Below, piece by piece: positions 28,142-63,882 of a stretch of 64,000 nt of DNA (position 1 is the stretch's first letter; the number at the start of each line of letters is the position of its first letter). The position numbers were made by a program, and so were the translations under genes. Below the pieces are notes generated by a model. The model saw only the letters and a program-made list of their open reading frames with translations, did no database searches and was not told where the DNA came from. Origin of the DNA: an uncultured Stenotrophomonas sp. (lineage in GTDB: Bacteria; Pseudomonadota; Gammaproteobacteria; Xanthomonadales; Xanthomonadaceae); the NCBI RefSeq assembly GCF_945952405.1, contig NZ_CAMFIA010000019.1, positions 17,118 through 81,117 on the forward strand. The letters are read 5' to 3'.

Positions 28142-28822
28142 GTGTTCTACGTCAGGGGGCTGAATGGACACCATGCAGTCAGAACTTGGAAAGTGGCCAT
28201 CGCCGCATGGCTGCTGCTGTCCTTTGCCGCTGCCGCGCAGGACGGCATTCATGCCTACGACATTCCGGCGCAACCGCTGGAACAGGCGGTCGAGCGCTTC
28301 AGCGTCATCAGCGGGTGGTCGGTGATGTACCCGGGCGATCTTGCCGCCGGCCGCAGCAGCCATGCGCTGCAGGCCAGCCTGCCGCCGCTGCCTGCACTGC
28401 AGATGCTGCTGCAGGACACCGGCATCGAGGCCGAGCTGACCGGTGCGCAGCGGGTGGTGCTGCGCCGGAGCACGCATGCTCTGGCCGAAACCGGTGGCGG
28501 CGCCGACCTACCCGAGGCCGAGCGCCGGCGTCGCTATGGCGGCCTGCAGCAGCGGCTGCGCGAAGCGTTCTGTGACGACCCTGCGATTGCACCCGGCCGC
28601 TATGCCGCGACGTTGCGTTTCCGCGTCGGCGGCGACGGCCAGGTACAGGCTCCCGAACTGGTGTCCGGCAGTGGCAGTGCCGGCCGCGATGCGCGCCTGC
28701 TGCAGGCCCTGCAGGCACTGCAGCTGGAGGCCGCTGCGGCAGCGCTTCCGCAGCCGGTCACCCTGCAGATCCGTCCTTCCGGCAACGACCACGACTGTGG
28801 CCGGCGCCCGCCCCTTCCATGA
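28142..28822 (+). CDS. Exported STN-domain protein at the head of the FecI/FecR locus
   Basis: About 226 residues. A hydrophobic export signal (VAIAAWLLLSFAAAA) is followed by an STN domain, the short N-terminal signalling domain of secretins and TonB receptors: IHAYDIPAQPLEQAVERFSV, then a beta-alpha repeat to about residue 110. The rest (RYAATLRFRVGGDGQVQAPE) resembles a TonB C-terminal-like fold. The start is uncertain: GTG at 28142 has GAGGG upstream and gives a charged N-region, GTG at 28193 begins inside the signal, and the frame opens at 28067. It is periplasmic and probably signals to FecR, whose gene follows two genes later. Confidence 0.75.
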   Translation: MFYVRGLNGHHAVRTWKVAIAAWLLLSFAAAAQDGIHAYDIPAQPLEQAVERFSVISGWSVMYPGDLAAGRSSHALQASLPPLPALQMLLQDTGIEAELTGAQRVVLRRSTHALAETGGGADLPEAERRRRYGGLQQRLREAFCDDPAIAPGRYAATLRFRVGGDGQVQAPELVSGSGSAGRDARLLQALQALQLEAAAAALPQPVTLQIRPSGNDHDCGRRPPLP

Positions 28823-28838
28823 CTTCAAGGATTCGAAC

Positions 28839-29369
28839 ATGAGCAACGGTACGGCTGGGGCAGTTGACCTGATGGACCATCTGCTGGGCGCCTACGACGA
28901 GCTGAAGCGTCGCCTGGTCCGCAAGCTGGGCTCGGAGGAGCTGGCGGGCGATGCGCTGCAGGACACCTGGATGCGGCTGAGCGCGCGCCGCGACCGCCTG
29001 GACGCGGTGCAGAACCCCGCGGCCTATCTGCTGCGCATGGCGATGAACACCGTGATCGACCGCCAGCGTGCCGACCACCGCCTGCTGAGCCTGGAAGAGG
29101 TGGACACGCTGATGGACATGGCCGACCCGGCACCGGGCCCGGCGCAGGCTGCGGAACTGGATTTCGCACTGGAAGACATGGTCGGGCTGCTGCAGCGCAT
29201 GCCGGAGCGCCGCCGTCGCATCCTGCTGGCGATCCGCGTCGACGGCCTGCAGCAGCGGGATGTCGCCGATCACCTGGGGGTGTCGCTGCGGCTGGTACAG
29301 CGTGAACTGAAGGCGGCCCAGGACTACCTGGCCGAACGCAGCGGCCAGGGGCGCCAGGTGCGGTTCTGA
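28839..29369 (+). CDS. fecI: FecI-type ECF sigma factor
   Basis: A 176-residue sigma factor. Region 2 shows LAGDALQDTWMRLSARRDRL and YLLRMAMNTVIDRQRADHRL; region 4 has MPERRRRILLAIRVDGLQQR followed by VADHLGVSLRLVQRELKAA. This is the iron-starvation (FecI) subfamily, activated through a FecR partner. AAGG lies ahead of the ATG. It is probably the switch for the secretion locus downstream, but no target promoter could be identified by eye. Confidence 0.9.
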   Translation: MSNGTAGAVDLMDHLLGAYDELKRRLVRKLGSEELAGDALQDTWMRLSARRDRLDAVQNPAAYLLRMAMNTVIDRQRADHRLLSLEEVDTLMDMADPAPGPAQAAELDFALEDMVGLLQRMPERRRRILLAIRVDGLQQRDVADHLGVSLRLVQRELKAAQDYLAERSGQGRQVRF

Positions 29370-29438
29370 GCGGCGGCATCCGTCTACACTTTGACGCCGA
29401 GCAGAACCCCGCAGCGTGCGGGTCCGGCATGAGCTCCC

Positions 29439-30419
29439 ATGGATCCTGACGATCGCCCGCAACGCCCGCTGGATGCCGTCGAGCGTCAGGCCCACGCGTG
29501 GGTGGTGCGGCTGACCTCGGGCGAAGCCACCGCCGCCGATGGACGCAGGTTCCGCGCGTGGTGCGAGGCTGATCCGCGCCATCGTGAAGCGTTCGGCCGT
29601 GCGCGTCGGCAATGGGAGCAGGTGCGCGTGGCCGGCGAACAGCTGCCGCGCGACGCGCGCCAGCCCATCGCGCCATCACCGGTGCAGCGCTGGAGCCGCC
29701 GCGCCTTCCTGGGGGCTGCGATTGCCGCGCCCGCCAGCCTGGCGGTGGTGGCGGCACTGCGCCCCCCGCTGGGGCTGTGGCCGTCGGTGACGGCGATGGC
29801 GGCCGATTTCCACACCGGCACCGGCGAGCGGTTGCAGATTGCACCGGTGCCGCAGTTGAAGATCGAACTGGATACGCAGAGCAGCCTGCGCCGTCGCGCT
29901 GATGCGCAGGGCGAAGGGTTCGAACTGGTGCAGGGCCAGGCGGCGATCGAAACCCTGGCCGGCCTGCGCCTGGCGTTGTTTGCCGGGCCGGGCTGCGTGG
30001 TCGCCGATGAAGGTGCGGTGCGCCTGGACGTCCGCAATACCAACGGCCAGGTGCGGGTGACCTGCCTGCACGGCAGTGCCCGCATCGAGCACCCGCAGGG
30101 GCGGCTGCAGCTGCAGGCCGGCCAGCAGACCGGCTACGACGAACGTCTCAGCGGCGTGGTGGCCGAAGCGGTCGCCTCGGAAGTGAGTGCCTGGACCGAG
30201 GGCATGCTGGTGTTCCGCCGTGCTCCCTTGCACGAGGTGGTGGAGGAGATCAACCGCTATCGCCGCGGCAAAGTGCTGCTGGGCGAATCGGCATTGGCGC
30301 GCGCCCCGGTCAGCGGTCGCTTCCGCATCGATGATCCGGACGCAGCGCTGGAGCAGCTGCGGCTGACCCTGTCGCTGGATCTGCGTCGCTTTCCGGGTGG
30401 CATTGCCGTCCTTGGTTAG
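29439..30419 (+). CDS. fecR: FecR-type anti-sigma/signal-transducing protein
   Basis: A 326-residue protein with a cytoplasmic N-terminal DUF4880-like part (AHAWVVRLTSGEATAADGRR and WCEADPRHREAFGRARRQWE), a membrane segment after the twin-arginine-like RRAFLGAAIAAPASLAVVAA (about residues 88-107), and a periplasmic FecR domain (LKIELDTQSSLRRR, GQVRVTCLHGSARI). It ends in an STN-like segment. It transmits a periplasmic signal to the sigma factor encoded upstream. The usual TonB-dependent receptor partner is absent; the STN protein at 28142 is the likely substitute. Confidence 0.9.
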   Translation: MDPDDRPQRPLDAVERQAHAWVVRLTSGEATAADGRRFRAWCEADPRHREAFGRARRQWEQVRVAGEQLPRDARQPIAPSPVQRWSRRAFLGAAIAAPASLAVVAALRPPLGLWPSVTAMAADFHTGTGERLQIAPVPQLKIELDTQSSLRRRADAQGEGFELVQGQAAIETLAGLRLALFAGPGCVVADEGAVRLDVRNTNGQVRVTCLHGSARIEHPQGRLQLQAGQQTGYDERLSGVVAEAVASEVSAWTEGMLVFRRAPLHEVVEEINRYRRGKVLLGESALARAPVSGRFRIDDPDAALEQLRLTLSLDLRRFPGGIAVLG

Positions 30420-30477: not shown

Positions 30478-31029
30478 ATGCGCAACGAGACCATCGGTGT
30501 GCTGGATCTGCGCCGCAATCTGTCGGCGCTGCTGGAAACCACGCAGCGACGGCCGTTGATGGTGCATCGTTATGGGTCGCCCTGGGTGTGCGTGGTCTCC
30601 GACGCACAGTGGCAGCAGCAGGCCGTGCTGCTGGAATTCGACCCGCAGTCGCATCCACTGGCGATGCTGCTGCGCCTGCAGCAGCAGGTACTGCCCCTGG
30701 CCGAGGCCGGGGCACTGCCACCTGCGGCACTGGCACGCGCGCTGCTGCTGATGGGCATGCATGGCATCGACAGCCTCGTTCAGCTGCACGAGCAGGTGCA
30801 GCATCATCGACTGTGGCACTGGTTCGTGGCCGGCACGCATGGCCTGATGGACGGCTGGCAGCTGCCGGCACTGCGCGTGGCGATGGCGTCGTGGCTGGAT
30901 GACGCAGGCATGACCGACGCACTCGCGGCGTTCGCCCAGCGCAGTGACGTGGCGGTGCTGGCGCGGCGCTGCGGCGGAGACGTGCCGCGGCTGGAACGTG
31001 AAGCCTGCAGGTGCATGACGCTGCAGTGA
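30478..31029 (+). CDS. Unknown protein with a Phd/YefM-like N-terminus (paralog 1)
   Basis: A 183-residue soluble protein. Residues about 5-43 (IGVLDLRRNLSALLETTQRR, then PLMVHRYGSPWVCVVSDAQW) have the pattern of Phd/YefM antitoxins: a short strand, a helix, then the RYG-x-x-WV-x-V-S-x-x-x-W strand pair. The rest is helical and not recognised. No toxin gene is adjacent, so this is more likely a DNA-binding or structural relative than an antitoxin. AAGGAG lies before the ATG. It is a paralog of the next gene. Confidence 0.65.
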   Translation: MRNETIGVLDLRRNLSALLETTQRRPLMVHRYGSPWVCVVSDAQWQQQAVLLEFDPQSHPLAMLLRLQQQVLPLAEAGALPPAALARALLLMGMHGIDSLVQLHEQVQHHRLWHWFVAGTHGLMDGWQLPALRVAMASWLDDAGMTDALAAFAQRSDVAVLARRCGGDVPRLEREACRCMTLQ

Positions 31030-31149: not shown

Positions 31150-31734
31150 ATGGCAGACAGTCGCAGGATCAGCATGCTGGAGCTCGATCGCCACCTGAGC
31201 CAGTCACTGGAGCAGGCCCGGCACGCGCCCCTGAACGTGCAGCGCTATGGGCATTCATGGGTGTGGGTACTGTCCAGCGATGCCTGGGCGGATGCAGGGC
31301 GCTGGGCAGCACTGGACAGCTCATCGCATCCGCTGCTGGCAGTGCGCAGGGCGCTTGACCCGCAGCTGCGGCCCTGGCCTGAGGCCGCCATGACCCTGTT
31401 GCCGTTCGACGCCGGCGACCCGCGCCAGCTGCAACGTGCGGCGCTGCTGGTGGTGCTGCGTGACCTGCGCAGTGCGCAGCGCGTGCACGACGACCTGCGC
31501 TACCACCAGGCCTATCGGCAGTTCATTGGCCTCGACCACGGCAAGGCCTGGTCACCGATGCAGTGCGTGCGCCTGCTCCAGGCCTGCTCGCATCCACTGC
31601 TGCAAGGCTGCATCGAAGCAACGTTGCGGGGTATTCCTGCGCACCTGCTGGATGCAGCGTGCGTTGCGGCCACGCGTGTGGCACCGCTGCAGGCGCAGGC
31701 ACAGCGAATAGCAGGCGGATGTTTATCGTACTGA
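31150..31734 (+). CDS. Unknown protein with a Phd/YefM-like N-terminus (paralog 2)
   Basis: About 194 residues, collinear with its upstream neighbour: ISMLELDRHLSQSLEQARHA and PLNVQRYGHSWVWVLSSDAW match the same positions there, and SSHPLLAVRRALDPQ aligns with QSHPLAMLLRLQQQ. The frame opens at 31063, but the ATG at 31150 preserves the shared N-terminus. It is soluble with no signal peptide. The pair sits between the fecI-fecR switch and the secretion genes, so a regulatory role is reasonable though unproven. Confidence 0.65.
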   Translation: MADSRRISMLELDRHLSQSLEQARHAPLNVQRYGHSWVWVLSSDAWADAGRWAALDSSSHPLLAVRRALDPQLRPWPEAAMTLLPFDAGDPRQLQRAALLVVLRDLRSAQRVHDDLRYHQAYRQFIGLDHGKAWSPMQCVRLLQACSHPLLQGCIEATLRGIPAHLLDAACVAATRVAPLQAQAQRIAGGCLSY

Positions 31735-31791: not shown

Positions 31792-32229
31792 ATGGCAAGG
31801 CAGGTGGGTGGTCGCAGGACTCGGCAGCAGGGTTTCAGCCTGATCGAGATCATGGTGGTGGTGGTGATCATCGGCATTCTCGCCGCGCTGATCGTACCGC
31901 GGTTGATGGACCGTCCCGACCAGGCGCGCGTGGTCGCGGCGCGGCAGGACATCGCGGCGCTGATGCAGGCGTTGAAGCTGTTCAAGCTGGACAACGGGCG
32001 CTACCCGAGCGCCGAGCAGGGCCTGCAGGCACTGGTGAAGCCGCCACAGGGTAGTGGCGCGATGCCGGTCTCGCCCTATCTGGACCGCCTTCCGAACGAT
32101 CCGTGGGGCCATCCGTACCAGTACCAGGTTCCCGGCACCCACGGCGACATCGATGTGTTCTCGCTGGGCGCGGACAGCAAGCCCGGTGGCGACGCCGGGA
32201 ACGCGGACATCGGTTCCTGGCAACTGTGA
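31792..32229 (+). CDS. gspG: Type II secretion major pseudopilin GspG
   Basis: A 145-residue prepilin-like protein. The prepilin peptidase site QQGFSLIEIMVVVVIIGIL has Gly before the cleavage and Glu at mature position 5. The body shows the GspG signature GRYPSAEQGLQALVKPP, DPWGHPYQYQVPG and the Ca-site-like end FSLGADSKPGGDAGNADIGS. It is the main subunit of the periplasmic pseudopilus. GAGGGCGGA precedes the ATG. It is the first gene of the seven-gene forward half of the T2SS cluster. Confidence 0.95.
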   Translation: MARQVGGRRTRQQGFSLIEIMVVVVIIGILAALIVPRLMDRPDQARVVAARQDIAALMQALKLFKLDNGRYPSAEQGLQALVKPPQGSGAMPVSPYLDRLPNDPWGHPYQYQVPGTHGDIDVFSLGADSKPGGDAGNADIGSWQL

Positions 32230-32238
32230 GGCGAGCCG

Positions 32239-33144
32239 ATGGCAACCCGGATGCGTTCGGTGGCGTTGGCCCGCCAGCGCGGCATGGCAGTGATCGTGGC
32301 GATGCTGGTGGTGGCGCTGGTAGCGGTGATCGCCACCGCCCTGCTGACCCGCCAGTCTGCGCAGTTGCGCGCGCTGCGGGGCGAGCAGCTGCGCGCCCAG
32401 GTGCGGATGGCGGTGGACGCCACGCTGGAGCGCGCGGCCCAGCAGCTGCGCGAGGATGTGCAGGAGCAGCTGACCACTGTTCGCAGCGGGCGCTGGGCGC
32501 GGCCGTTGCGCTCGCAGGTGCCGCTGCCGGTGCAGTTGCAGCTGGTTGATGCACAGTCAATGTTCAATCTACGCAACCTGCTGGCGCATGGCAGGCCCGA
32601 TCCGGAAGCGCGGCGCGCGTTCATCGCGTTGTGTGCCGGGCAGGGGCTGGGGCAGGGCGCTTGCGCATCCGCAGCGGATCATATCCAGGCACGCCTGCGC
32701 GATGGCGACATCCAGGCGCAGGCGCCGCTGCCACGCGAGTCCCTGATCGAGCAGGCGTTCGCCGGTGCCGACCCCGTCGCCGTGCAGGCGCTGGCACGGC
32801 GCACCGTGGTGCTGCCGGCGCAGACCCTGGTCAACGCCAACACCAGTGATTCCAGCGTGCTGCAGGCGGTCATGCCCAGTGTCGAGCCTGGGCGCATGCA
32901 GGCGCTGCTCAGTGAGCGCGATGGGGGCCACTGGTTGCTCAATCGCGGTGACATCGCCAATCGCCTTCAACTGAGCGACGCGCAGATGGAACTGGTACCC
33001 CTTGGCATCCATAGCGAGTGGTTCCTCGCCGTCGGCCAGGTGCAGGCCGATGAGAGTGTGGTCGACTTCCGCGCGCTGATCTGGCGCGAGTACCGCGACG
33101 ACGGCGTGCGTGTGCAACGTGTGTGGACGAGGATCGGTGCATGA
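32239..33144 (+). CDS. gspK: Type II secretion minor pseudopilin GspK
   Basis: A 301-residue minor pseudopilin that caps the pseudopilus tip. RQRGMAVIVAMLVVALVAVI is the GspK-type prepilin segment, which lacks the usual Glu5. QLVDAQSMFNLRNLL is the recognisable family motif, and NANTSDSSVLQAVMP lies in the alpha domain. It follows gspG by nine bases and overlaps gspL (ATGA). GspH, I and J, its tip partners, are encoded 21 kb away in this locus. Confidence 0.92.
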   Translation: MATRMRSVALARQRGMAVIVAMLVVALVAVIATALLTRQSAQLRALRGEQLRAQVRMAVDATLERAAQQLREDVQEQLTTVRSGRWARPLRSQVPLPVQLQLVDAQSMFNLRNLLAHGRPDPEARRAFIALCAGQGLGQGACASAADHIQARLRDGDIQAQAPLPRESLIEQAFAGADPVAVQALARRTVVLPAQTLVNANTSDSSVLQAVMPSVEPGRMQALLSERDGGHWLLNRGDIANRLQLSDAQMELVPLGIHSEWFLAVGQVQADESVVDFRALIWREYRDDGVRVQRVWTRIGA

Positions 33145-34304
33145 GCGTGCAGCTGAGGGTGCGCCTGCCGGCGCTGGAGCGCCTGGGTGCGGACAGCGAG
33201 GTCGAATGGGCCCAGCTGCAGAAAGGGATTGCCCAGGCCCAGGGGCGCGCGCCGCTGGCCCTGCTCGGGCAGCGCTATGCCCAGGCCGAGGTGCTGGCCA
33301 GCCTCGATCCGCATGACCTGATCCTGCTGGAACTGCAGCTGCCACCGCTGTCGGGTCGTCGGCTGCAGGCGGCATTGCAGGGGGAAGTGGAAGCGATGCT
33401 GCTGGACGACCTGCAGGAGGTGGCACTGGCGCATGGCAGCCAGGCGGCCGACGGCAGCGTGCCGGTGGCGTGGCTCGGCCTGCAGGTGATCGTGCAGGCG
33501 CAGCAGCTGCTTGCGTCATGTGGTCTGCGACTGCAGGCGCTGTACCCGACGCCATTGCTGCTGCCCTGGCAGAGCGGGCAGGCGACGCTGCAGGCCAGTG
33601 GTGAGCACCTGCTGGTGCGCAGCGGGCGTGACCGCGGCCTGGTGCAGTGGTGCGGCGGTCGTGACTCAGGCGCGGTGATGCAGGCGCTGGCGGCGCGGCT
33701 GCAGCAGGCAGGCGTTGAGGCCGTGCAATGGGTCGGCAGCGTGCCATCGGCATGGCCGCAAAGCATGCCAGCATCTGTGTTGGCACACGAACTGCAGGCC
33801 AGTGGCCCGCTCCCCGGCTGGTCGCTGCCGCTGCCTGGCGGCGGACGGCAGGCGCCGCGGCTGGCGATCGGGCTGGCGCTGGCGGCCGTGCTGCTGGCCG
33901 CGCTCGGGCTGCAGCTGCAGGTCTCGCGCTGGCGCAGCGAGGGCGAGGCGTTGCAGCAGGACATGGCACGCCAGTTCAGCGCGCACTTTCCGGAGATCAC
34001 CGACGTGGTCGACCCGGTGCTGCAGGCGCGGCGCGCGCTGTCCGTTCCGCCATCGGCACCGCCGTTGCCACCCCTGCAGCGACAAGTCGCCAGCACGCTG
34101 CAGGCGGTCCCGGAGCTGGGCGGACAGGTGCGCGGCCTGCGCTATCAATCCGGCCAGCTGGAGCTGGAGCTGGATGCCGAAGCGCAGGCCGTGGTCGATG
34201 ACGCGCAGCGGTTGGAGCAGTGGCAGCAGGCGGCGCAGGCGCAGGGCCTGCTGCTGGTGCGCGAAGCGGGTGGTCGCCTGCGCGTGAGCGGAGGTGGGCA
34301 GTGA
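33141..34304 (+). CDS. gspL: Type II secretion inner-membrane protein GspL
   Basis: A 387-residue bitopic protein with a cytoplasmic actin-like domain (up to about residue 235), one membrane helix (LAIGLALAAVLLAALGLQLQ) and a periplasmic ferredoxin-like end (LPPLQRQVASTLQAVPELGG onward). It links the GspE ATPase to GspM in the membrane. The ATG at 33141 overlaps the gspK stop. The N-terminal part is divergent, but gene order and topology support the call. Confidence 0.85.
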   Translation: MSVQLRVRLPALERLGADSEVEWAQLQKGIAQAQGRAPLALLGQRYAQAEVLASLDPHDLILLELQLPPLSGRRLQAALQGEVEAMLLDDLQEVALAHGSQAADGSVPVAWLGLQVIVQAQQLLASCGLRLQALYPTPLLLPWQSGQATLQASGEHLLVRSGRDRGLVQWCGGRDSGAVMQALAARLQQAGVEAVQWVGSVPSAWPQSMPASVLAHELQASGPLPGWSLPLPGGGRQAPRLAIGLALAAVLLAALGLQLQVSRWRSEGEALQQDMARQFSAHFPEITDVVDPVLQARRALSVPPSAPPLPPLQRQVASTLQAVPELGGQVRGLRYQSGQLELELDAEAQAVVDDAQRLEQWQQAAQAQGLLLVREAGGRLRVSGGGQ

Positions 34305-34828
34305 CCGCCGCCGCGCTGCGCCTGGGCGCGGGCGCAGCGGGCCTGCAGCGGCGATGGCAGCGCCTGCCGCCGCGCGACCGGCTGATGCTGCGGGCGATGG
34401 TCGCAGCGCTGCTGGTCGCCAGCCTGTGGTCGTTCTGGCTGGAGCCGCTGTTGAAGCAGCGCACCTACTGGCAGGCCGAACTGCCGCGGCTGCAGGCGCA
34501 GGCGCAGGCATTGGCGCCACTGCTGCGTGCGCGCGAGCGCCGGCAGCAGGCGCAGGGGCAACGCCCCACGCTGGCCGGCCTGCGCGAGCAGATCCGCTCC
34601 GCCGGCCTTGCCAAGGGGCTGCATATCGAAGCGCGCGACGGACACTGGCACCTGCAGGTACAGGCGGTGCCCGCCGACGCGTTGTGGAACTGGCTGCTGC
34701 CGTTGCTGGCTGATCCGGCCATCGAGCTACAGCAGCTGCAACTGACACGCACAGGGGATGCGAACATGCCGGCGGCACGGATTTCCGGAAACATCGAAGT
34801 GGCACTCTCTGCGGGTGGCCATCCATGA
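34301..34828 (+). CDS. gspM: Type II secretion inner-membrane protein GspM
   Basis: A 175-residue protein with a short cytoplasmic N-terminus, one membrane helix (AMVAALLVASLWSFWLEPLL) and a coiled-coil then ferredoxin-like periplasmic part. WLLPLLADPAIELQQLQLTR is the typical GspM end strand. The start is the GTG at 34301, overlapping the gspL stop as GTGA; the frame extends to 34220, but this start fits the overlap pattern. Confidence 0.86.
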   Translation: MTAAALRLGAGAAGLQRRWQRLPPRDRLMLRAMVAALLVASLWSFWLEPLLKQRTYWQAELPRLQAQAQALAPLLRARERRQQAQGQRPTLAGLREQIRSAGLAKGLHIEARDGHWHLQVQAVPADALWNWLLPLLADPAIELQQLQLTRTGDANMPAARISGNIEVALSAGGHP

Positions 34829-38636: not shown

Positions 38637-38643
38637 GGCGACG

Positions 38644-55448: not shown

Positions 55449-55891
55449 TGCACGACCTGCAATTGTCCGCTGCCATCGTCAAGAAGACGCAGCGTACGGC
55501 CGTCCAGCGACAACCCCAGTTCCCATGCACTGCCGATCCACTCAGGACTCAGTTCGAGCGCGCCGGCAGGCTGCACCGCAATGCCGGCGGCCTGCCAGCG
55601 CTGCGGCCGCAGCAGGTCATCACGCTGCACGGCCACCCACTGGCTGCCTTCGCGGCGGCTGAAGCGATAGCCGTTGGCGTCGGCCTGCCAGCGCAGGGGA
55701 CGGCCGTCGATACGCGCCTCGTCGCGCGCGACCTGCAGCCGCTGCGCCAGCCGCTCGGCTTCCTGCCGCAGCTGCCGGCCGGGGTCGAGCAGGCTACCGA
55801 GGCCGAGGCCGATGCCGGCCGTGCAGATGCCGATGATCACCAGCACCACCATCAGTTCCAGCAGGGTGAAGCCACGCGGGATGCGCTGCAT
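55445..55891 (-). CDS. gspH: Type II secretion minor pseudopilin GspH
   Basis: A 148-residue minor pseudopilin. IPRGFTLLELMVVLVIIGIC carries the peptidase site and Glu5, and ARDEARIDGRPLRWQADANG resembles the GspH body. Two ATGs compete: 55897 has AGGAGG only two bases away, while 55891 has it eight bases away, the ideal spacing, so I chose 55891. It is first in the minus-strand H-I-J unit and divergent from gspC. Confidence 0.9.
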   Translation of the reverse strand: MQRIPRGFTLLELMVVLVIIGICTAGIGLGLGSLLDPGRQLRQEAERLAQRLQVARDEARIDGRPLRWQADANGYRFSRREGSQWVAVQRDDLLRPQRWQAAGIAVQPAGALELSPEWIGSAWELGLSLDGRTLRLLDDGSGQLQVVQ

Positions 55892-55899
55892 CGACATTG

Positions 55900-55905
55900 C
55901 CTCCT
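55900..55905 (-). promoter_or_regulatory. Consensus ribosome-binding site deciding the gspH start
   Basis: On the minus strand this is a full AGGAGG. It is eight bases from the ATG at 55891 and two from that at 55897, which favours the inner start. Confidence 0.75.
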
Positions 55906-55994
55906 GTCCTTGCCGATGCCTGCCAGCGTAGGCCTGCATGATGAAACAAAAGCGTCAGCGGCAGCTGCTAGCGTGGACGGTCACGAACGTGGCG

Positions 55995-56471
55995 ATGGTG
56001 CGGAACATGGATGGCTGGCGCTGGGATCGCAACCGGAGTCTGACCCTGCTGGCGGCAACGCTGCTGCTTGCCGTGGTCGCCTATTGGGGGATTGCCCTGT
56101 CTGCGGTGGCGCCTGCGGCGGCGGCCAGCGAAGCGCGTGCCGAGGCACCGCTGCGGCCGATGTTCGATGCGGTGGCCAGCCTGCCATTGGTGCGGCTGCT
56201 GTCTCCCGGTGCGATACAGACCGAGGTGGTGGTGCTGGGTGTGATGGCCGGTGAGCACGCGCCGCTGGCCCTGCTCTCGGTGGATGGCCGGCCGGCGCAG
56301 GCGTATGCGCCTGGGCAGCGGCTGGGGCCCTGTACGGTACTGGCCCGCATCAGCGCCAGTGCGGTGGAACTTGACCAGGCCGGGCAGTCGCGCAGCCTGC
56401 CGGTACCACAGCTGCCGCCGGTGCCGACCGACGGCATTGCGCCGGCTGAGCAGCAGGGTGGCACCCTGTAG
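55995..56471 (+). CDS. gspC: Type II secretion GspC-like inner-membrane protein
   Basis: About 158 residues with a short cytoplasmic start, one membrane helix (LTLLAATLLLAVVAYWGIAL) and a periplasmic HR-like domain: IQTEVVVLGVMAGEHAPLAL, LLSVDGRPAQAYAPGQRLGP, then VLARISASAVELDQAG. GspC links GspL/M to the secretin. The PDZ or coiled-coil end of longer GspC proteins is missing, and the chain ends in a Pro-rich tail. The start is uncertain between 55938, 55995 and 56007. The TAG stop is again the TAG of a SMAG (56468). Confidence 0.8.
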   Translation: MVRNMDGWRWDRNRSLTLLAATLLLAVVAYWGIALSAVAPAAAASEARAEAPLRPMFDAVASLPLVRLLSPGAIQTEVVVLGVMAGEHAPLALLSVDGRPAQAYAPGQRLGPCTVLARISASAVELDQAGQSRSLPVPQLPPVPTDGIAPAEQQGGTL

Positions 56472-56561: not shown

Positions 56562-56897
56562 TCAGCGCGCTGGCCGTTGCGGCACCACCGAGCGACCGAA
56601 TGCATCGCCCATGCGTTGCCGCGTGCCTTCCAGGTTGAATTGCATCAACTGGTTGCCGGGCTGGCGCATCAGGCGCTCGGCTTCGGGAAGCGCCGGCGAA
56701 CGGGCCGGCTTCGGTGCAGGCGCCAGCTTGCGCTGCAGGCAGTCCCAGGCCGGAATCCGTTCGCCATTGACCTGTACCTCGATGCACGGCGCAGTGTCGT
56801 CCGGGGTCTTCCGTGCATCGGCCCGGGCCGGCGCCAGCGCCATCAGCAGCAACAGGGCGAGGGCAGGGCGAACGCCCGCCATCAACGGCACACTCAT
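56562..56897 (-). CDS. Small exported cysteine-pair protein of unknown function
   Basis: A 111-residue protein with a clear signal peptide (VRPALALLLLMALAPARADA) and a short mature region with two cysteines (APCIEVQVNGERIPAWDCLQ) that could form a disulfide. A Pro/Ala linker and a polar end follow. I do not recognise a family. The ATG at 56897 has GAGGGAG at good spacing; the upstream extension of the frame is noise. It is divergent from tpsB across a palindromic operator-like site, which suggests coregulation. Confidence 0.7.
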   Translation of the reverse strand: MSVPLMAGVRPALALLLLMALAPARADARKTPDDTAPCIEVQVNGERIPAWDCLQRKLAPAPKPARSPALPEAERLMRQPGNQLMQFNLEGTRQRMGDAFGRSVVPQRPAR

Positions 56898-57089: not shown

Positions 57090-58715
57090 ATGCCCTCGAT
57101 GACTCCTGTTCCGTGCCGTGCCGTCCGCCTTCCGCTGTGCCCGCATCCACTGGCGCTGGCCCTGGCAGTGATGCCGTTGCCGCTGTTCGCGCAGGACGCA
57201 GCGCCTGCGCCCAGCGTGAACATCAATGAATACATCGTGCGCGGCAACACGGTTCTCGATCCGCGCGAGATCGAACGCGCGGTGGAACCGTACCTCGGCC
57301 CGGGCAAGACCCTGGCCGATGTTGAAAAGGCACGCGATGCGGTGCATGCGCTGTACCAGCAGGCTGGCTACCAGTCGGTCTACGTCGAGCTGCCCGAGCA
57401 GCAGGTCAGTGGCGGCGTGGTGCTGCTGAAGGTGCAGCAGACGCCGATCGGCCAGCTGCGCGTGGTCGGTACCCGCCACGAATCGCCCGAGCGCATCCGC
57501 GAGCGCGTACCCGCACTGGCGGAAGGCAAGGTGCCGGACTTCGACCAGGCACAGAAGGAACTGACCGCGCTGAATGAAGGCGGGCGCCGCCAGGTGATGC
57601 CGCTGATGCGCGAAGGCCAGGCGCCGGGAACCATGGACGTGGACCTGAAGGTCGAGGAGAAGTCGCCATGGCGTGCCAGTGCGGCGCTGAACAACGACCA
57701 CAGTGCTGACACCGAGAAGCTGCGCCTGAGCGCGTCACTGGCGTACGACAACCTGTGGAGGCGCGGGCACAGTGCGAACATCGGCGTGTACCTGGCGCCG
57801 CAGGATACCAAGCAGGCCAAGGTGTTCTCGGCGTCGTACACGATGCCGTTCGAGGGCACGCCGTGGAGCCTGGAAGCTGCCGGCTACAGGTCCGACAGCC
57901 GGGTCCTGAACGCCGGCGGACAGGTCGGTACCGGCACCGGTACCAACGTGATCGGCAATGGCCATTCGATCGGCGTCAAGCTCAACTACCGGCTGGCGGG
58001 CAGCAACCTCTGGTGGCGCCAGCTCAGCCTCGGTGTGGACTTCAAGGACACCGAAGAAGATACGCAGATGGGCAAGGAAAGCCTGAAGACGCCCCTGAAG
58101 TACGCGCCGATCACCCTGGCGTTTGTTGGCGTGCGCCAGGGCGAGCAGGACCAGTTGAGCATCAACACCCAGCTGGTGGCCGGTACCCGGCGCCTGCTCG
58201 GTTATGGCAGCAATGCCACTGCATTCGGGCAGAAACGCTATTGGGCAGACCCGAGTTTCGTGGCGTTCAAGGCCGATGTGGCCAACACCCACACCTTTGG
58301 CAACGACTGGCAGTGGTATGCGCGCGGTTCGCTGCAGGTCACCGACGCGCCGCTGGTGTCGGCCGAGCAGTTCGCCGCCGGTGGCATGTACACGGTACGT
58401 GGCTACCTGTCGGCCGAGGCGATCGGCGACTACGGCGGCCTGGCCAGCCTGGAGTGGCGCACGCCGGCCTGGTCGCTGTGGAGCGGCACCGACCTGCGTG
58501 TCTACAGCTTTGCCGATGCCGCCTACCTGCGCCTGCGCCAGCCGCTGCCCGAGCAGCGTGACAAGTACAACCTGGCGTCGGTCGGACTGGGTGCGCAGCT
58601 GCGCCTGGGTGAGCACCTGCAGCTGCGCCTGGACTATGCCTGGCCCTATGCAGACGGCCCGGTGACGCGCAAGGACGACCCGCGCCTGCATTTCAACATC
58701 AGCACCAGTTACTGA
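57090..58715 (+). CDS. Two-partner secretion outer-membrane transporter (TpsB, ShlB/FhaC type)
   Basis: A 541-residue Omp85-superfamily transporter with a signal peptide (PLALALAVMPLPLFAQ). Two POTRA domains follow: VNINEYIVRGNTVLDPREIE, and GQLRVVGTRHESPERIRERV as the second. A 16-strand barrel then shows the L6 motif MYTVRGYLSAEAIGDYG, whose Arg-Gly-Tyr locks the barrel. It presumably exports the giant TpsA. No Shine-Dalgarno is obvious; the ATG at 57090 is the first in frame, with another three codons later. Confidence 0.92.
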   Translation: MPSMTPVPCRAVRLPLCPHPLALALAVMPLPLFAQDAAPAPSVNINEYIVRGNTVLDPREIERAVEPYLGPGKTLADVEKARDAVHALYQQAGYQSVYVELPEQQVSGGVVLLKVQQTPIGQLRVVGTRHESPERIRERVPALAEGKVPDFDQAQKELTALNEGGRRQVMPLMREGQAPGTMDVDLKVEEKSPWRASAALNNDHSADTEKLRLSASLAYDNLWRRGHSANIGVYLAPQDTKQAKVFSASYTMPFEGTPWSLEAAGYRSDSRVLNAGGQVGTGTGTNVIGNGHSIGVKLNYRLAGSNLWWRQLSLGVDFKDTEEDTQMGKESLKTPLKYAPITLAFVGVRQGEQDQLSINTQLVAGTRRLLGYGSNATAFGQKRYWADPSFVAFKADVANTHTFGNDWQWYARGSLQVTDAPLVSAEQFAAGGMYTVRGYLSAEAIGDYGGLASLEWRTPAWSLWSGTDLRVYSFADAAYLRLRQPLPEQRDKYNLASVGLGAQLRLGEHLQLRLDYAWPYADGPVTRKDDPRLHFNISTSY

Positions 58716-58753
58716 CCCTTTCCTTGAACATGCGTTCCCCGGAGACCCTTCGC

Positions 58754-60538
58754 ATGGACCGTTTGCTTTCCCGAGTGTTGCTGCTGCTGGCCGCGCTGGT
58801 TGCGCTGCCCGCCGCTGCGGCCGATGCCAATTGGTGGCAGGCCGAATGGAAGTACCGCAAGCCGATCACGGTCGACGCCGGCCCGCAGGGCGCAGGCCTG
58901 GCCGGTGACCCGGGCCGCACGCCGCTGCTGCTGCGCCTGCACACCGGCAACTTCGGCTTCGATGGCACGCAGGATGCGGGCAATGACCTGCGTTTTGTTT
59001 CCGGTGATGGCCGCACGGTGCTGGCGCACCAGATCGAGCAGTTCGATCCCAAGCTGGGACTGGCCCTGGTCTGGGTGGACGTGCCTGCGGTCAGTGCTGC
59101 CGCGCCGCAGACGATCTGGATGTACTACGGCAACGAGAAGGCGCCGGCCAGCGGCAATGGCCAGCAGGTGTTCGATCCGGACTACACGCTGGTCTATCAT
59201 TTCGCCGAGGCCAATGCTCCTGCGCGTGATACCACCGCCTACGGCAACAACGCCGGTGCCGTGGTGCCGCCTTCCGAAGGTTCGGTGATCGGCCGTGGCG
59301 TGCAGCTGGGCGCCGGTCCGCTGCCGTTGCCCGCCAGTGCCTCGCTGGCCCAGGAAGCGGGTGCGCCGTTGACCGTCTCGGCGTGGATCAAGCCGGGCGG
59401 CAGCGCGGCAGCGCAGGCGATCTACGCCCGTCGCGAAGGTGCTTCCGAGCTGGTCATCGGTATTGAAAACCGCGTGCCGTTCGTGCAGCTCAATGGCCAG
59501 CGCAGCACGCCGGCGCAGCCGATTCCCGAAGGGCAGTGGGCGCACGTGGCACTGACCGCCGAGAAGGGTGCACTGCAGCTGTACCTCAATGGCCGCGTGG
59601 TCGCGCAGCTCAGCGGCGAGCTGCCTGCGCTGGGCAGCGCGCCGGTGGTCGGTGCCGATGCGCCGGGTGCGGCACAGCCGTTGGCCAACTTCGAGGGCGC
59701 GCTGGACGAACTGCGCATTTCGCGGGTGGCACGCCCGGCGGCGCTGCTGCTGGCCGACGCCACCGCGCAGGGCGCCGACTCGCGCCTGATCAGCTACGGC
59801 GCCGACGAGCAGTCGGCCGGCCAGAGCCATTTTGCCTTCATCCTCAAGGCGATGCCGTTCGACGCCTGGGTGGTGGTTGCCATCCTCGGCCTGATGATGC
59901 TGCTGTCGTGGGCGATCATGATCGCCAAGGGTCGCCATTTCGGCCGCACCAGCAAGGCCAATGCGGTGTTCACCGAGAGCTTCGGCAAGCTGGCCGGTGT
60001 GCCGCTGCGCACCCTGTCCGACCTGGATCGCCAGGGCAAGGCACCGAGCGCGATGCACGAAGGTTCGTTGTGGCGCATCTACCAGGTCGCGATCGATGAA
60101 ATGCAGCAGCGCCATCAGCGCGACGGCAACAGCGGCTACCTGAGCGGAGCCACCATCGACGCGATCCGGGCCTCCATGGATGCGGTGATGGTGCGCGAGC
60201 AGGAAGCGATGGCGCGGCGCATGAACTGGTTGTCGACCACCATCGAAGGCGCGCCGTACGTGGGCCTGTTCGGCACCGTGATCGGCATCATGCTGGTGTT
60301 CGTGGTGGCCGCGATGGCCGGTGCGGTGGACATCAACTCGGTGGCGCCGGGCATGGCCGCCGCGCTGCTGTGTACGGCGGCAGGCCTTGGCGTCGCGATC
60401 CCGGCGCTGTTCGGCTACAACTACCTGGGCGCACGCGCCGAAGCGATCGGCGCCGACATGGCGGTGTTCATCGACGAGTTCGCCGCACGCCTGGCTGAAG
60501 AGCAGGACGGGCGCGGCCCGGCCGCGGTCCAGGGCTGA
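58754..60538 (+). CDS. ExbB/TolQ-type proton channel fused to periplasmic DUF2341 and LamG-like domains
   Basis: A 594-residue protein with a signal peptide (residues 1-22), a DUF2341-like domain (WQAEWKYRKPITVD to IWMYYGNEKAPASG) and a LamG/concanavalin-like domain (DYTLVYHFAEANAPARDTTA, GQWAHVALTAEKGALQLYLN, EGALDELRISR). The ExbB part starts near residue 360 with FAFILKAMPFDAWVVVAILG; GAPYVGLFGTVIGIMLVFVV and GMAAALLCTAAGLGVAIPAL are the channel signature. Ordinary ExbB lacks the roughly 340-residue periplasmic head. GGAGA eight bases before the ATG at 58754 favours that start over ATG 58730. Confidence 0.9.
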   Translation: MDRLLSRVLLLLAALVALPAAAADANWWQAEWKYRKPITVDAGPQGAGLAGDPGRTPLLLRLHTGNFGFDGTQDAGNDLRFVSGDGRTVLAHQIEQFDPKLGLALVWVDVPAVSAAAPQTIWMYYGNEKAPASGNGQQVFDPDYTLVYHFAEANAPARDTTAYGNNAGAVVPPSEGSVIGRGVQLGAGPLPLPASASLAQEAGAPLTVSAWIKPGGSAAAQAIYARREGASELVIGIENRVPFVQLNGQRSTPAQPIPEGQWAHVALTAEKGALQLYLNGRVVAQLSGELPALGSAPVVGADAPGAAQPLANFEGALDELRISRVARPAALLLADATAQGADSRLISYGADEQSAGQSHFAFILKAMPFDAWVVVAILGLMMLLSWAIMIAKGRHFGRTSKANAVFTESFGKLAGVPLRTLSDLDRQGKAPSAMHEGSLWRIYQVAIDEMQQRHQRDGNSGYLSGATIDAIRASMDAVMVREQEAMARRMNWLSTTIEGAPYVGLFGTVIGIMLVFVVAAMAGAVDINSVAPGMAAALLCTAAGLGVAIPALFGYNYLGARAEAIGADMAVFIDEFAARLAEEQDGRGPAAVQG

Positions 60539-60548: not shown

Positions 60549-60962
60549 ATGGGCCAGAAGGCGAAGTTCGGCATCAAGAAGCGCGAGAAAGGCATCAACG
60601 TGACGCCTTTCGTCGACGTGCTGCTGGTGGTGCTGGTGATCTTCATCCTGACCAGCAATGCCTCCATTCCCGGCATCGAGGTCAACCTGCCGAAGGCCAG
60701 CAACAGCGTTGCGCTGGAGAAGCCGAAGACCAAGGCGATCACCATCGATCCCAGTGGCCAGGTGTTCCTGGACGCGTATCCGGTGACGATGGCCGAGCTG
60801 GAGGACCGCCTGCGCACCGAACGCGCGACGACGCCGGACTTCCCGGTGATCGTGCGTGGCGATGCGCAGGTGCAGTACGCCCGCGTGGTCGAGGTGCTGG
60901 ACCTGCTGCGGCGGCTGGAGCTGGCCCAGGTTGGCCTGGTCACCGGCAAGGCGCAGGGCTGA
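60549..60962 (+). CDS. exbD: ExbD/TolR-type protein
   Basis: A 137-residue inner-membrane protein with one helix. INVTPFVDVLLVVLVIFILT holds the conserved membrane aspartate needed for proton use, followed by a periplasmic ExbD fold (ITIDPSGQVFLDAYPVTMAE, FPVIVRGDAQVQYARVVEVL). It is placed ten bases after the ExbB fusion and forms its motor partner. Confidence 0.95.
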   Translation: MGQKAKFGIKKREKGINVTPFVDVLLVVLVIFILTSNASIPGIEVNLPKASNSVALEKPKTKAITIDPSGQVFLDAYPVTMAELEDRLRTERATTPDFPVIVRGDAQVQYARVVEVLDLLRRLELAQVGLVTGKAQG

Positions 60963-60965
60963 GGC

Positions 60966-61667
60966 ATGACCGCCCATCAACCCCCTCGGCCGGAGCCCGG
61001 CATGCGCGGCCGCCAGCTGCTGGTGACCGTAGCGCTGGTGTTGGCCGCGTTGCTGCTGCTCGGCATCGCGGTGTGGTGGTGGCTGCTCAAGGACACCGCC
61101 AGCACCCGCCGGCCGGTGGTGCAGCCGCCGATGCTGGCGCTGCCACCGCCGCCTCCGCCGCCACCGCCGCCGCCGGAGAAGCCGCCGGAGCCGGAGACGC
61201 CACCGGAAGAAACGATGCCCGAGCCGGAACCGCTGGATCAGCCGACGCCGGCCGAGGAACCGACGCCGACCCCGGCCGACGCCGACCCGGTGACGATGAA
61301 CGCCGACGCACAGGCCGGCGGCGACAACTTTGGCATCCAGTCCGGCAGCGGGGGTGGTTCGTCCGGCGTCGGCCGTGGCGGTGCCGGCAACGCCACCTAC
61401 GGCCGCTATCTCGGCTACCTGATGCAACAGGCGATCTCGCGCGACGACAAGGTCAAGCGCCTGGCGTTCCAGTTGCAGGTGAACGTGTGGCTGGCCGCAG
61501 ATGGCCGCCTGGAAAAGGTCGAGCTGGTCCGTGGCAGTGGCAACGAGGAGGCCGACACGGCCGTGCTCGACGCGCTGCGACGCATCGGCAAGGTCGACCA
61601 GGCCCCACCGCCTTCGCTTGATTTCCCGGCCCGCGTGCTGATCCAGGGCCGCCGGCCCGGGGCCTGA
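60966..61667 (+). CDS. TonB-like energy-transducing protein
   Basis: A 233-residue protein with a cytoplasmic start, one membrane helix (LLVTVALVLAALLLLGIAVW) and a long Pro-rich periplasmic spacer (a run of Pro, then Pro/Glu repeats). A Gly-rich linker and a TonB C-terminal-like domain follow (FQLQVNVWLAADGRLEKVEL, EEADTAVLDALRRIGK). The usual QPxY-type TonB box contact is not obvious. It is the third gene of an ExbB-ExbD-TonB unit, yet no TonB-dependent receptor lies in the window. Confidence 0.88.
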   Translation: MTAHQPPRPEPGMRGRQLLVTVALVLAALLLLGIAVWWWLLKDTASTRRPVVQPPMLALPPPPPPPPPPPEKPPEPETPPEETMPEPEPLDQPTPAEEPTPTPADADPVTMNADAQAGGDNFGIQSGSGGGSSGVGRGGAGNATYGRYLGYLMQQAISRDDKVKRLAFQLQVNVWLAADGRLEKVELVRGSGNEEADTAVLDALRRIGKVDQAPPPSLDFPARVLIQGRRPGA

Positions 61668-61697
61668 TTTCCGACTTCCGTGATTTCCCCTCTTTCA

Positions 61698-63455
61698 ATG
61701 AGAACCGTGATGAACGACCACGTCCGCGCACGAACCGACTCCCGCCGCCCGCGGCCGGCCCGACGGGCGCTGCTGTGCTGCGCCGTGCTGCTCAGCCTGG
61801 CCGCCCCGGCCGGTGCAATGGCCGCCGAAACCACCATGGTCAAGCTGATCAAGGGCCTGATCGCCAGCGGTGCGCTCAAGCCCGAAGATGGCCAGGCATT
61901 GCTGGTGCAGGCCGAAGCCGAGGCGGCAGCCGCGCAGCGCACCGCCGCTGCCGGCAGCAGCGCGGCCGCCGGTGGCGTGGCACTGGAGGCCGGTGACGTA
62001 CGCGTGCCCTACGTGCCACAGAGTGTGCGCGACGGCATCCGTGATGAGGTGCGCCAGGACGTGATGGCCCAAGCCAAGTCGGAAGGCTGGGCCGCACCCA
62101 ACGAAGTGGCCGAGTGGACCAAGCGCATCAAGGTCACCGGTGACATGCGCGTGCGCAGCGAGTCGCGCTTCTATTCCGAGCGCAACAGCGACATCGTGAG
62201 CAACTGGGCGTCGATCAATTCCGGCAACGGCTTCGATACCAATACCAACACCAACCTGCAGCTGCCGCCGCTGCTGAACAGCCGCCAGGACCGCCGCAAC
62301 CTGTGGCGCATCCGCGCCCGCCTCGGCATCGAAGCGACCATCGGCCAGCACACCACCGCCGGCGTGCGCCTGGCCAGCGGCAGCAGCAATGGGCCGGTGT
62401 CGACCACCGAGCAGCTGGGTGGGGGCCTGAGCAAGAAGGATGTGTGGCTGGACCAGGCCTGGTTGGCCTACAGCCCGGCCGACTGGGTGACGGTGCGCGG
62501 TGGTCGCTTCGGCAACCCGTTCTGGACCAGCGATACGCTGTTCTCCAACGACCTGAACTTCGACGGCCTTGCCGCCAACCTGAAGTACGACTTCGGTGGC
62601 AGTGACTTCGACCTGTTCGGTACCCTGGCCGTGGTGCCGCTGGAGTACACCTCCGACAGCTCGCCCAGCCAGAGCCGGGTCAAGACGCCGAACGAGAACA
62701 AGTGGCTGTCTGGCGCCCAGGTCGGCGTGAACTGGCGTTTCAACGACGACAATGCCCTGCGCGCGGCACTGGGCTACTACGACTTCAAGAACATCAGCGG
62801 CCGTCTGTCGTCGCCGTGCGCGCTGTATGCCGGTGCGGTCGGCTGTGATACCGACTGGTCGCGTCCTGCCTTCATGCAGAAGGGCAACACCCTGATGCTG
62901 ATCCGCGACATCGCGCGCAACCCGCTGGATCCGGCCAATACGCCGACCCCGCAGTATGTCGGCCTGGCTTCGGCGTTCCGCCTGGCGACACTGAACCTGC
63001 GCTGGGATACGCAGCTGGCGCAGGATATCGGCATGCGCCTGGAAGGCGACTACATCCGCAACCTGGCCTACGACAAGCAGGCGATGTTCCGCCGTGCCAA
63101 CAACGGCATCGTCAACAACTACGGTGCCGGTGGCACCGCCAGCATCGATACCTTCCGCAGTGGCGATACCGCATGGATGGTGCAGGCCACGTTCGGTGCC
63201 ACCGACCTGAAGGAAAAGGGCCAGTGGCAGGCGCTGCTGGGCTACAAGCACATCGAGGCCGATGCATTGCCGGATGCCTACAACGACCCGAATTTCCACC
63301 TGGGCGGCACCAATGCCCGCGGCTACTACGTGGGCGGGGCCTATGCACTGGATGCGCGCAGCTGGATCAGCGGCAAGTGGATGGCTGCCAAGGAGGTATC
63401 CGGCGCACCGCTGTCGATCGATGTGTTCCAGCTGGAGTTCAATACCGGCTTCTGA
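61698..63455 (+). CDS. Putative outer-membrane porin
   Basis: About 585 residues. A signal region (RALLCCAVLLSLAAPAGAMA) is followed by a helical, probably coiled-coil stretch (LIKGLIASGALKPEDGQALL and the Glu/Ala-rich run after it). A long beta-barrel of alternating strands follows (KITVTGDMRVRSESRFY-like start, WLAYSPADWVTVRGGRFGNP), ending in the outer-membrane signal VFQLEFNTGF with terminal Phe. It fits the 'putative porin' family with an S-layer-homology-like N-terminal helix. The start is unclear between GTG 61680, ATG 61698 and ATG 61710. It follows the TonB-like gene by 30 bases. Confidence 0.85.
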   Translation: MRTVMNDHVRARTDSRRPRPARRALLCCAVLLSLAAPAGAMAAETTMVKLIKGLIASGALKPEDGQALLVQAEAEAAAAQRTAAAGSSAAAGGVALEAGDVRVPYVPQSVRDGIRDEVRQDVMAQAKSEGWAAPNEVAEWTKRIKVTGDMRVRSESRFYSERNSDIVSNWASINSGNGFDTNTNTNLQLPPLLNSRQDRRNLWRIRARLGIEATIGQHTTAGVRLASGSSNGPVSTTEQLGGGLSKKDVWLDQAWLAYSPADWVTVRGGRFGNPFWTSDTLFSNDLNFDGLAANLKYDFGGSDFDLFGTLAVVPLEYTSDSSPSQSRVKTPNENKWLSGAQVGVNWRFNDDNALRAALGYYDFKNISGRLSSPCALYAGAVGCDTDWSRPAFMQKGNTLMLIRDIARNPLDPANTPTPQYVGLASAFRLATLNLRWDTQLAQDIGMRLEGDYIRNLAYDKQAMFRRANNGIVNNYGAGGTASIDTFRSGDTAWMVQATFGATDLKEKGQWQALLGYKHIEADALPDAYNDPNFHLGGTNARGYYVGGAYALDARSWISGKWMAAKEVSGAPLSIDVFQLEFNTGF

Positions 63456-63552
63456 CCGGTGACGTGATGTGGATCACGTCGTGCGTGGCGGGGGCGCAGC
63501 GATGCGCCCGTCTAAGGAAAGGAGACCACGCGTTGTACAAAAGGAGGAGTGG

Positions 63553-63882
63553 ATGAACCGTCGCAAGCTGTTCGAGAGTTCCGAACCGTCCGGCCAGTCG
63601 CTGGGCATCGGGCCGGCCTATGTCTCGGTGGAGGGGCTGCGCCAGCACCTGGCGGAGTTCCTGCTGTATGCCGGGCGGCCGGTGGTGATCATGCGCGGGC
63701 GCAGCGAAGTGGGCTATTTCCTGCCGGCACGCTGCTGGCGCCAGCGCGATGATGACCCACTGGCGGCGGCCGCCGCCGACCAGCTGCTGGACGCGGCCGG
63801 TTTCCAGGCTGAGGACATCCAGCAGGTGGAGCAGGAGTTCAACGCCATGCGCCAGCGCACCGTGCTGCACTCACGGCGCTGA
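63553..63882 (+). CDS. Small unknown protein with a Phd/YefM-like pattern (third copy)
   Basis: A 109-residue soluble protein. VSVEGLRQHLAEFLLYAGRP followed by VVIMRGRSEVGYFLPARCW repeats the strand-helix-strand pattern of the N-termini encoded at 30478 and 31150, though with low identity. The rest is an Ala-rich helical tail. The ATG at 63553 has a perfect AGGAGG about eight bases upstream. It closes the secretion locus, so the same kind of protein stands near both ends. A regulatory role is suggested, not shown. Confidence 0.65.
   Translation: MNRRKLFESSEPSGQSLGIGPAYVSVEGLRQHLAEFLLYAGRPVVIMRGRSEVGYFLPARCWRQRDDDPLAAAAADQLLDAAGFQAEDIQQVEQEFNAMRQRTVLHSRR

Follow-up and report, generated by a model that had tools for sequence, protein, structure and literature searches.

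A probable Stenotrophomonas counterpart of the Pseudomonas PUMA3/Vre-Hxc-Pdt locus, encoding two-partner secretion together with a TonB motor and a porin

We analysed a 64,000-nucleotide stretch of DNA (the window) from an uncultured Stenotrophomonas sp. (contig NZ_CAMFIA010000019.1 of assembly GCF_945952405.1), and in it the composite envelope locus at 28142-63882, which the original prediction, made from the sequence, had described as a FecI/FecR-type switch, a type II secretion system (T2SS), two-partner secretion (TPS) and an ExbB-ExbD-TonB motor joined in one regulated programme. Scans against Pfam, and in part NCBIfam, over all 25 genes confirmed every gene claimed, and added what that list lacked: a VreA-like protein with STN and TonB domains, three proteins resembling PhdA and a small exported protein (Table 1). 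The T2SS is indeed split as claimed, its core subunits C to M all being found but divided around pstS-tpsA. The ExbB, ExbD and TonB domains are all present together at the locus by both Pfam and NCBIfam, and TpsA with its TPS domain and TpsB with its POTRA domains and barrel make up a two-partner (type Vb) secretion pair. The window ends where the contig ends, and genes further downstream in this genome lie outside view.

Table 1. Genes and features of the composite locus, with positions in the window and the basis of each assignment.
Feature	Position	Strand	Basis
Putative pho box: 16-bp element GTCATCGCAATGACAT, 11-bp direct repeat, upstream of the vreA-like gene	28025..28040	+	Conservation in Stenotrophomonas loci
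VreA-like exported protein, 226 aa, STN-like and TonB C-terminal domains, no barrel	28142..28822	+	Pfam, NCBIfam
VreI-like FecI-type extracytoplasmic function (ECF) sigma factor	28839..29369	+	Sigma70_r2, r4_2; sigma70-ECF E=1.2e-19
VreR-like anti-sigma factor	29439..30419	+	DUF4880, FecR (E=6e-23)
PhdA-like protein 1	30478..31029	+	DUF772 above cut-off; PhdYeFM only E=0.14
PhdA-like protein 2	31150..31734	+	DUF772 below cut-off
T2SS gspG, K, L, M, D, E, F	31792..39843	+	Pfam
PstS-like exported protein	40115..41353	+	PBP_like_2 E=1.3e-18; PstS E=3.8e-13, below cut-off
TpsA, 4127 aa, TPS domain and DUF3739	41557..53940	+	TPS E=1e-26, DUF3739 E=1.4e-40
gspJ, gspI, gspH	54475..55939	-	N_methyl in all three; GspH above, T2SSJ/T2SSI below cut-off
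gspC	55938..56471	+	T2SSC E=0.00028, below cut-off
Small exported protein	56562..56897	-	Without Pfam match
TpsB, POTRA_2 and ShlB: two POTRA domains and barrel	57090..58715	+	Pfam, AlphaFold model
ExbB fusion: signal peptide (by eye), DUF2341, LamG (Laminin_G_3), ExbB/TolQ	58724..60538	+	Pfam, NCBIfam
ExbD/TolR, membrane Asp kept	60549..60962	+	NCBIfam, sequence comparison
TonB	60966..61667	+	TonB_2 E=1.4e-7; tonB_Cterm above cut-off
Porin_5 porin	61680..63455	+	Pfam E=1.2e-186
PhdA-like protein 3 (assigned by eye)	63553..63882	+	No Pfam match; in 6 full Stenotrophomonas loci

The first three genes do not form a classical FecA/FecI/FecR signalling system, as the VreA-like protein has no receptor barrel; it matches TonB_2 (E=1.1e-5) and the FecA N-terminus (E=4.5e-8), with STN (E=0.015) below cut-off. 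GspC, GspJ and GspI likewise fall below the curated Pfam cut-offs, position backing all three assignments and N_methyl motifs those of J and I.

This make-up has a published precedent. The background cited here comes from parts of five papers (PMC2729926, PMC4971064, PMC7035377, PMC5422565, PMC12505986), and in what we cite of the first, Llamas et al. 2009, the PUMA3 locus of P. aeruginosa has the order VreA, VreI, VreR, Hxc T2SS, large TpsA, PA0691, TpsB, ExbB2, ExbD2 and PA0696, its VreA consisting of an STN domain and a TolA/TonB domain without a barrel (PMC2729926). VreI overexpression raised the expression of 30 genes, most of the regulated genes adjoining the locus (PMC2729926), and the neighbouring hxc, pdtA, phdA, pdtB, exbB2D2, tonB4 and PA0696 are under the control of the FecI-type sigma factor encoded beside them (PMC2729926, PMC7035377). 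In the parts cited, later P. aeruginosa papers introduce the names PdtA, PhdA, PdtB and TonB4, describe PA0696 as a putative porin and show dependence on PhoB, and the TonB system of the locus was still termed uncharacterised in 2020 (PMC7035377). PUMA3 homologues were reported in six other strains or species, all with TPS, ExbBD and PA0696 homologues (PMC2729926).

With PA0674-PA0701 the Stenotrophomonas locus shares the VreA make-up, the sigma/anti-sigma pair, a neighbouring T2SS, a giant TpsA, PhdA, TpsB, ExbB-ExbD-TonB and a putative porin, the latter recognised here by its Porin_5 family and in PA0696 by description. We regard it as very probably the Stenotrophomonas counterpart of PUMA3/Vre-Hxc-Pdt, with the same regulation logic and the same TPS-motor-porin unit. 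A new composite system is therefore rejected, because the PUMA3 locus was published with the same make-up: the joining of T2SS, TPS and TonB genes, originally taken to be unusual in kind, has been in print since 2009, the regulated composite programme is already known from Pseudomonas, and 28142-63882 is no new kind of locus.

The two loci nevertheless differ. In Stenotrophomonas the T2SS is split around pstS-tpsA, the gene near the T2SS is PstS-like where P. aeruginosa has lapA, a small exported protein is encoded beside tpsB, and PhdA-like genes number three (a pair behind vreR, the third behind the porin gene) where the P. aeruginosa papers name one. We also collected 80 named loci, selected by similarity to the ExbB fusion from among the matches listed, 22 of them from Pseudomonas. 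A PhdA-like open reading frame (ORF) found with a model of protein 1 or 2 lies directly upstream of tpsB in 21 of these 22, just as phdA precedes pdtB in P. aeruginosa, and the old label of PA0691, 'similar to transposase', is echoed by the DUF772 matches of the PhdA-like genes in the window. Several considerations temper the comparison. The Stenotrophomonas locus is known from its genes, whereas regulation in P. aeruginosa is known from expression work; the likeness rests on papers and on the loci of other Pseudomonas species, none of the 80 named loci among the matches listed being that of P. aeruginosa; and VreA is reported to be dispensable for activation of sigma-VreI in P. aeruginosa (PMC7035377). 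ExbB2 enters the comparison by its published description, DUF2341-LamG by the fusion sequences.

How far the parts of the locus stay together was assessed in 200 genomes of the order, 13 of them Stenotrophomonas. The ExbB fusion is present in 20 (E <=8e-116), while the remaining 180 reach 6.8e-26 at best, with ordinary ExbB/TolQ proteins. Gene order was compared at 19 loci of 52-60 kb each from 18 fusion genomes; G032, in which the fusion lies on a 3.8-kb contig, was counted for presence and excluded from the synteny comparison. All 25 genes are found in the same order at six of the seven other Stenotrophomonas fusion loci, and the ExbB fusion of the S. geniculata locus is 97% identical to that of the window. 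The whole block is present in 7 of the 13 sampled Stenotrophomonas genomes, our own included, with G199 an eighth carrying a reduced set. G199 and one of the two loci of another genome (G190a) retain small protein-vreA-vreI-vreR-tpsA-tpsB-motor-porin, with no match to the T2SS, pstS or PhdA-like genes in 60 kb. A second family of nine loci has vreI-vreR-tpsB-motor-porin with tpsA downstream, VreA being detected in six of the nine by tblastn and in all nine by phmmer; six have a partial secretin-like match upstream (26-29% identity), the other T2SS genes being unmatched. G190b and G195 have tpsB-fusion-exbD-porin-tpsA without a Vre match and with a TonB-like ORF detected by phmmer only. PstS-like matches follow tpsA in seven of the nine second-family loci and also in G190b and G195. 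In all 19 order-level loci the ExbB fusion is preceded by tpsB and followed within 3.5 kb by the porin gene.

The association extends beyond the order. DUF3739, the domain that accompanies the TPS domain in TpsA, and the ExbB fusion occur in identical sets of 20 of the 200 order genomes. Among 274 genomes of a class-level sample (three listed genomes are common to both samples, which hold about 471 genomes overall) DUF3739 exceeds its cut-off in 18, a below-cut-off match in G420 being left out, and the fusion is found in 16 at 1e-60, and a more permissive search brings in G268 (as two pieces of a single ORF) and G299 (a contig-edge fragment). Seventeen class-level genomes hold both, 255 neither, one DUF3739 only (G397, 64% complete) and one the fusion only (G302, 85% complete, on an 8.6-kb contig), giving Fisher p values, kinship of genomes ignored, of 6e-28 for the order and 7e-25 for the class. 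Strong Porin_5 matches occur in 19 of the 274 genomes, the exact union of the DUF3739 and fusion sets. TpsB-family proteins exceed their cut-off in 114 of the 274, so that ordinary TPS does not imply the motor.

Seventeen class-level neighbourhoods were read. Fourteen contain TPS genes (G317 by way of a second motor copy), the misses being G302, G334b and G348b; the porin gene is within 3.5 kb downstream in 13, T2SS-like matches are present in three (G219, G305 and G317), and neither VreI nor VreR is matched in any of the 17. Only two (G410 and G289) have tpsB directly upstream of the motor, because tpsA usually sits between. In G317 one ExbB-fusion-ExbD-TonB set (contig C3, ~154062-155786, L106-L108) is found between gspD-E-F and gspK-I-G-H matches, ~25 kb from a TPS-linked set. 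The 80 named loci have tpsB (78), exbD (79), tonB (77) and the porin gene (76) within 10 kb of the fusion, and those with misses, the four lacking the porin included, start or stop at a nearby contig end; in 26 of them the genes for VreI and VreR both lie no more than 10 kb from the motor. Among the matches listed, these loci come from alpha-, beta- and gammaproteobacteria, Anaeromyxobacter and Verrucomicrobiota. Three individual cases deserve record: three tandem PstS-like ORFs upstream of the module in Achromobacter pestifer (L146); two vreA-vreI-vreR sets within ~20 kb in Bradyrhizobium (L189, L194), which recall Rhodopseudomonas palustris, for which four PUMA3 sets are reported (PMC2729926); and, in a record titled Bacillus subtilis (L179), a Gram-negative module with a fusion 62% identical to that of the window, probably from a contaminated or mislabelled assembly.

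The link between TPS, motor and porin is thus strong, and a chance neighbourhood is contradicted for this core. The T2SS behaves differently. It is unmatched in G199, in G190a and in 14 of the 17 class-level loci, and we reject it as an integral part of the block. A GspD of this type was looked for in nine genomes without a nearby T2SS (five Stenotrophomonas without the module, G199, G190, G195 and G032), which hold only paralogues of at most 33% identity, against at least 90% in two positive controls; in the genomes tested this T2SS was never met apart from the block, whereas the block was met apart from the T2SS. The T2SS is optional, and the stable core is TpsA(DUF3739)-TpsB with ExbB(DUF2341-LamG)-ExbD-TonB and the Porin_5 porin. 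The observation of a composite locus accordingly stands, while its interpretation as one regulated programme is partly supported: the TPS, motor and porin sub-blocks hardly separate and the P. aeruginosa neighbours are sigma-dependent, but the T2SS does separate and cannot be counted as integral. In the literature searched we found no paper that mentions DUF3739 and, in the parts of it available, no treatment of the TPS-motor-porin unit beyond the PUMA3 papers.

The sequences of the motor suggest both conservation and change. The membrane Asp of ExbD is kept in 79 of 80 sequences, the window's included, and is Asn in one, which makes a proton path likely; ExbB(DUF2341-LamG)-ExbD-TonB is probably a motor driven by protons. 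ExbB/TolQ proteins conserve a Glu in their third membrane helix, and one ordinary ExbB/TolQ homologue of the same genome keeps it, but it is replaced in all 81 ExbB fusions (Ala in 77, Gly in 2, Ser in 2). Scored against NCBIfam, the ExbB part comes closer to TolQ than to ExbB, and the ExbD part closer to TolR than to ExbD. The fusion resembles ExbB/TolQ-type proteins with extra domains, and N-terminal additions such as DUF2341 have been noted on non-flagellar MotA/ExbB relatives (PMC12505986); a TPS link is absent from the part of that paper available, in which 'two-partner' has 0 occurrences.

The AlphaFold model of the porin (mean predicted local distance difference test score, pLDDT, 81) shows a helical hairpin, a linker of low confidence, a helix and a 16-strand barrel. 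The motif VRVPYVP (residues 107-113) falls in this linker, which has no secondary structure and stands ahead of the barrel. Alignments used 11, 29 and 30 hand-chosen sequences; in the 29 porin sequences, which are 33-60% identical to that of the window, Tyr111 is invariant and Val109 and Pro113 are at least 90% conserved. A strict YVP pattern is found in 79 of 109 porin ORFs and most of the other 30 read, by eye, VPYIS, VAVPYVP, HVTYVP or alike, some 5 being unjudgeable as their ORFs start far upstream. The class sample yields 51 Porin_5 matches, of which 20 are strong and start at profile positions 1-5 and 31 are weak and start at 142 or later, and the N-terminal segment with YVP seems to mark the motor-linked porins. 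Compared with the PDB by sequence, the porin had no match up to E=1.

TpsB is modelled with two POTRA domains and a barrel, and its top fold matches are CdiB and FhaC. FhaC has a plug helix before POTRA1; the TpsB model has no helix there. The system shares the TPS domain, POTRA domains and barrel with ordinary two-partner secretion as in FhaC and CdiB, whereas the DUF3739 C-terminus, the companion motor and the porin belong to the DUF3739 type. Type Vb secretion is described, in those parts of the literature available, as working without an energy source at the outer membrane.

The putative pho box upstream of vreA bears on how the block might be controlled. The element is identical in 7 of 7 Stenotrophomonas loci, its left flank differing, and has the 11-bp spacing of pho boxes, and phosphate control of the block is expected by homology with P. 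aeruginosa. Less favourable to this expectation, pho-box-like matches across the window are at chance level (4 seen against 3.88 expected) and full conservation is limited to the element upstream of vreA. Similar sites precede tpsA and tpsB in some relatives, and none does so in the window at the cut-off used.

These features can be assembled into a working scheme. A starvation signal, probably low phosphate acting through PhoB, would activate transcription of vreA-vreI-vreR, and VreI together with PhoB would then switch on the neighbouring export genes, both steps having been shown in P. aeruginosa and being carried over here by analogy. The Hxc-like T2SS would export phosphorus-related proteins, such as the PstS-like product, and the giant TpsA would be brought to the surface by TpsB, as is general for this family. 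Finally, the ExbB(DUF2341-LamG)-ExbD-TonB complex would push TonB towards the partner porin, to dock at its periplasmic YVP linker, and TpsA and the porin together would serve as capture protein at the surface and energised channel in the outer membrane. Such a division of labour is described for HxuCBA of Haemophilus influenzae, where a TpsA/TpsB pair cooperates with an outer-membrane channel that depends on TonB, HxuA with HxuC. The parallel is incomplete, as HxuC is a TonB-dependent transporter and the Stenotrophomonas partner is modelled as a 16-strand porin, and as the motor is encoded within the Stenotrophomonas locus, unlike in HxuCBA. We put this last step forward tentatively, as a reading somewhat short of an even chance. 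Among the three outer-membrane destinations originally suggested for the proton motive force, the porin is the best guess and TpsB the second, because the N-terminal segment seems to mark motor-linked porins and the porin gene adjoins tonB; the secretin is least likely, as the motor usually occurs without a T2SS.

A number of observations speak against the porin as target. With the Glu missing from its ExbB part, the motor may be an altered one. The porin model has 16 strands and no plug, not the 22 strands and plug of a TonB-dependent transporter, and it would make an unusual target for TonB. In fold it comes closest to OmpM1 of Veillonella, an outer-membrane attachment porin, and the YVP segment may have a structural or tethering role. 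The 31 weak Porin_5 matches are local, their N-termini being judged by profile coverage only. In G209 the motor and porin are ~28 kb apart, the porin beside tpsA, and G334b, G348b and the G317 hit have a motor without an adjoining porin.

Instead TonB might pull on TpsB, or on TpsA within it, and power export, surface retention or release of TpsA, which would make this a type Vb variant running on proton motive force. The constant position of tpsB upstream of the fusion at order level, repeated in 78 of the 80 listed loci (a set biased by its selection on the fusion), the occurrence of DUF3739 TPS without the motor in only one of 18 class genomes when the TpsB family as such is in 114 of 274, and the missing helix before POTRA1 all agree with it. 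At class level, however, tpsB is rarely next to the motor, with tpsA or other sequence between or the TPS genes elsewhere, and the stretch from the TpsB signal peptide to POTRA1 is a variable Ala/Pro-rich linker with no conserved TonB-box-like stretch in a sample that included every third of 79 sequences. A short N-terminus is also present in at least one ordinary TpsB (L236) of 19 fetched, L225 being unreadable. A TonB box at the TpsB N-terminus is rejected given this variability, and we consider the proposal as a whole rather doubtful.

A purely structural role is unlikely. Here the porin N-terminal segment and LamG-ExbB would form a trans-envelope tether anchoring TpsA/TpsB to the cell wall, for Tol-like envelope upkeep without outer-membrane transport, and both the OmpM1 fold match and the TolQ/TolR-leaning scores would suit it; a strict tie to one TPS type would not be expected of a general envelope function, and other ExbB/TolQ-type proteins are present in 13 of 13 Stenotrophomonas genomes. 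Very improbable is a motor that feeds VreA/VreR signalling, with the TonB-like domain of VreA linking motor, outer membrane and anti-sigma factor: that domain and the 26 listed loci with vreI and vreR close by would fit, but VreA is reported dispensable, and we reject signalling as the main role of the motor since VreI and VreR are unmatched in the 17 class-level loci. That independent systems are neighbours by chance is hardly credible, for although many loci have the same core without a T2SS, gene order is kept at six other Stenotrophomonas loci, the co-occurrence is as significant as given above and the P. aeruginosa genes share a regulon (PMC2729926, PMC7035377).

The small exported protein has two conserved Cys and a C-terminal R-M/F-G...P-x-R-P signature; at least 22 related ORFs score above 60 bits in the 80 loci among the matches listed, and they lie nearest to porin, tpsB, tpsA, PhdA-like or vre genes. 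The gap between its gene and tpsB (56897-57090) contains an inverted repeat, TGACAG-N2-CTGTCA, and a longer stretch conserved in 7 Stenotrophomonas loci. The gap between tpsA and gspJ (53941-54450) gives translations with repeated peptides, suggesting short intergenic DNA repeats.

To return to the energised porin or TpsB, DUF3739 TPS may represent a separate, phylum-spanning class working on proton motive force, in which the altered motor acts on TpsB or on the YVP-linker porin; we hold this general form possible but with still more reserve than the porin mechanism itself. If true, type V secretion would here be energised for the first time, or else a porin would be driven by TonB. That the motor and one TPS type co-occur almost perfectly sharpens the question of whether proton motive force is used by a two-partner system or by the porin that accompanies it, and the proteins, the linker motif and the controls with which energised TPS or an energised porin could be tested are now named.

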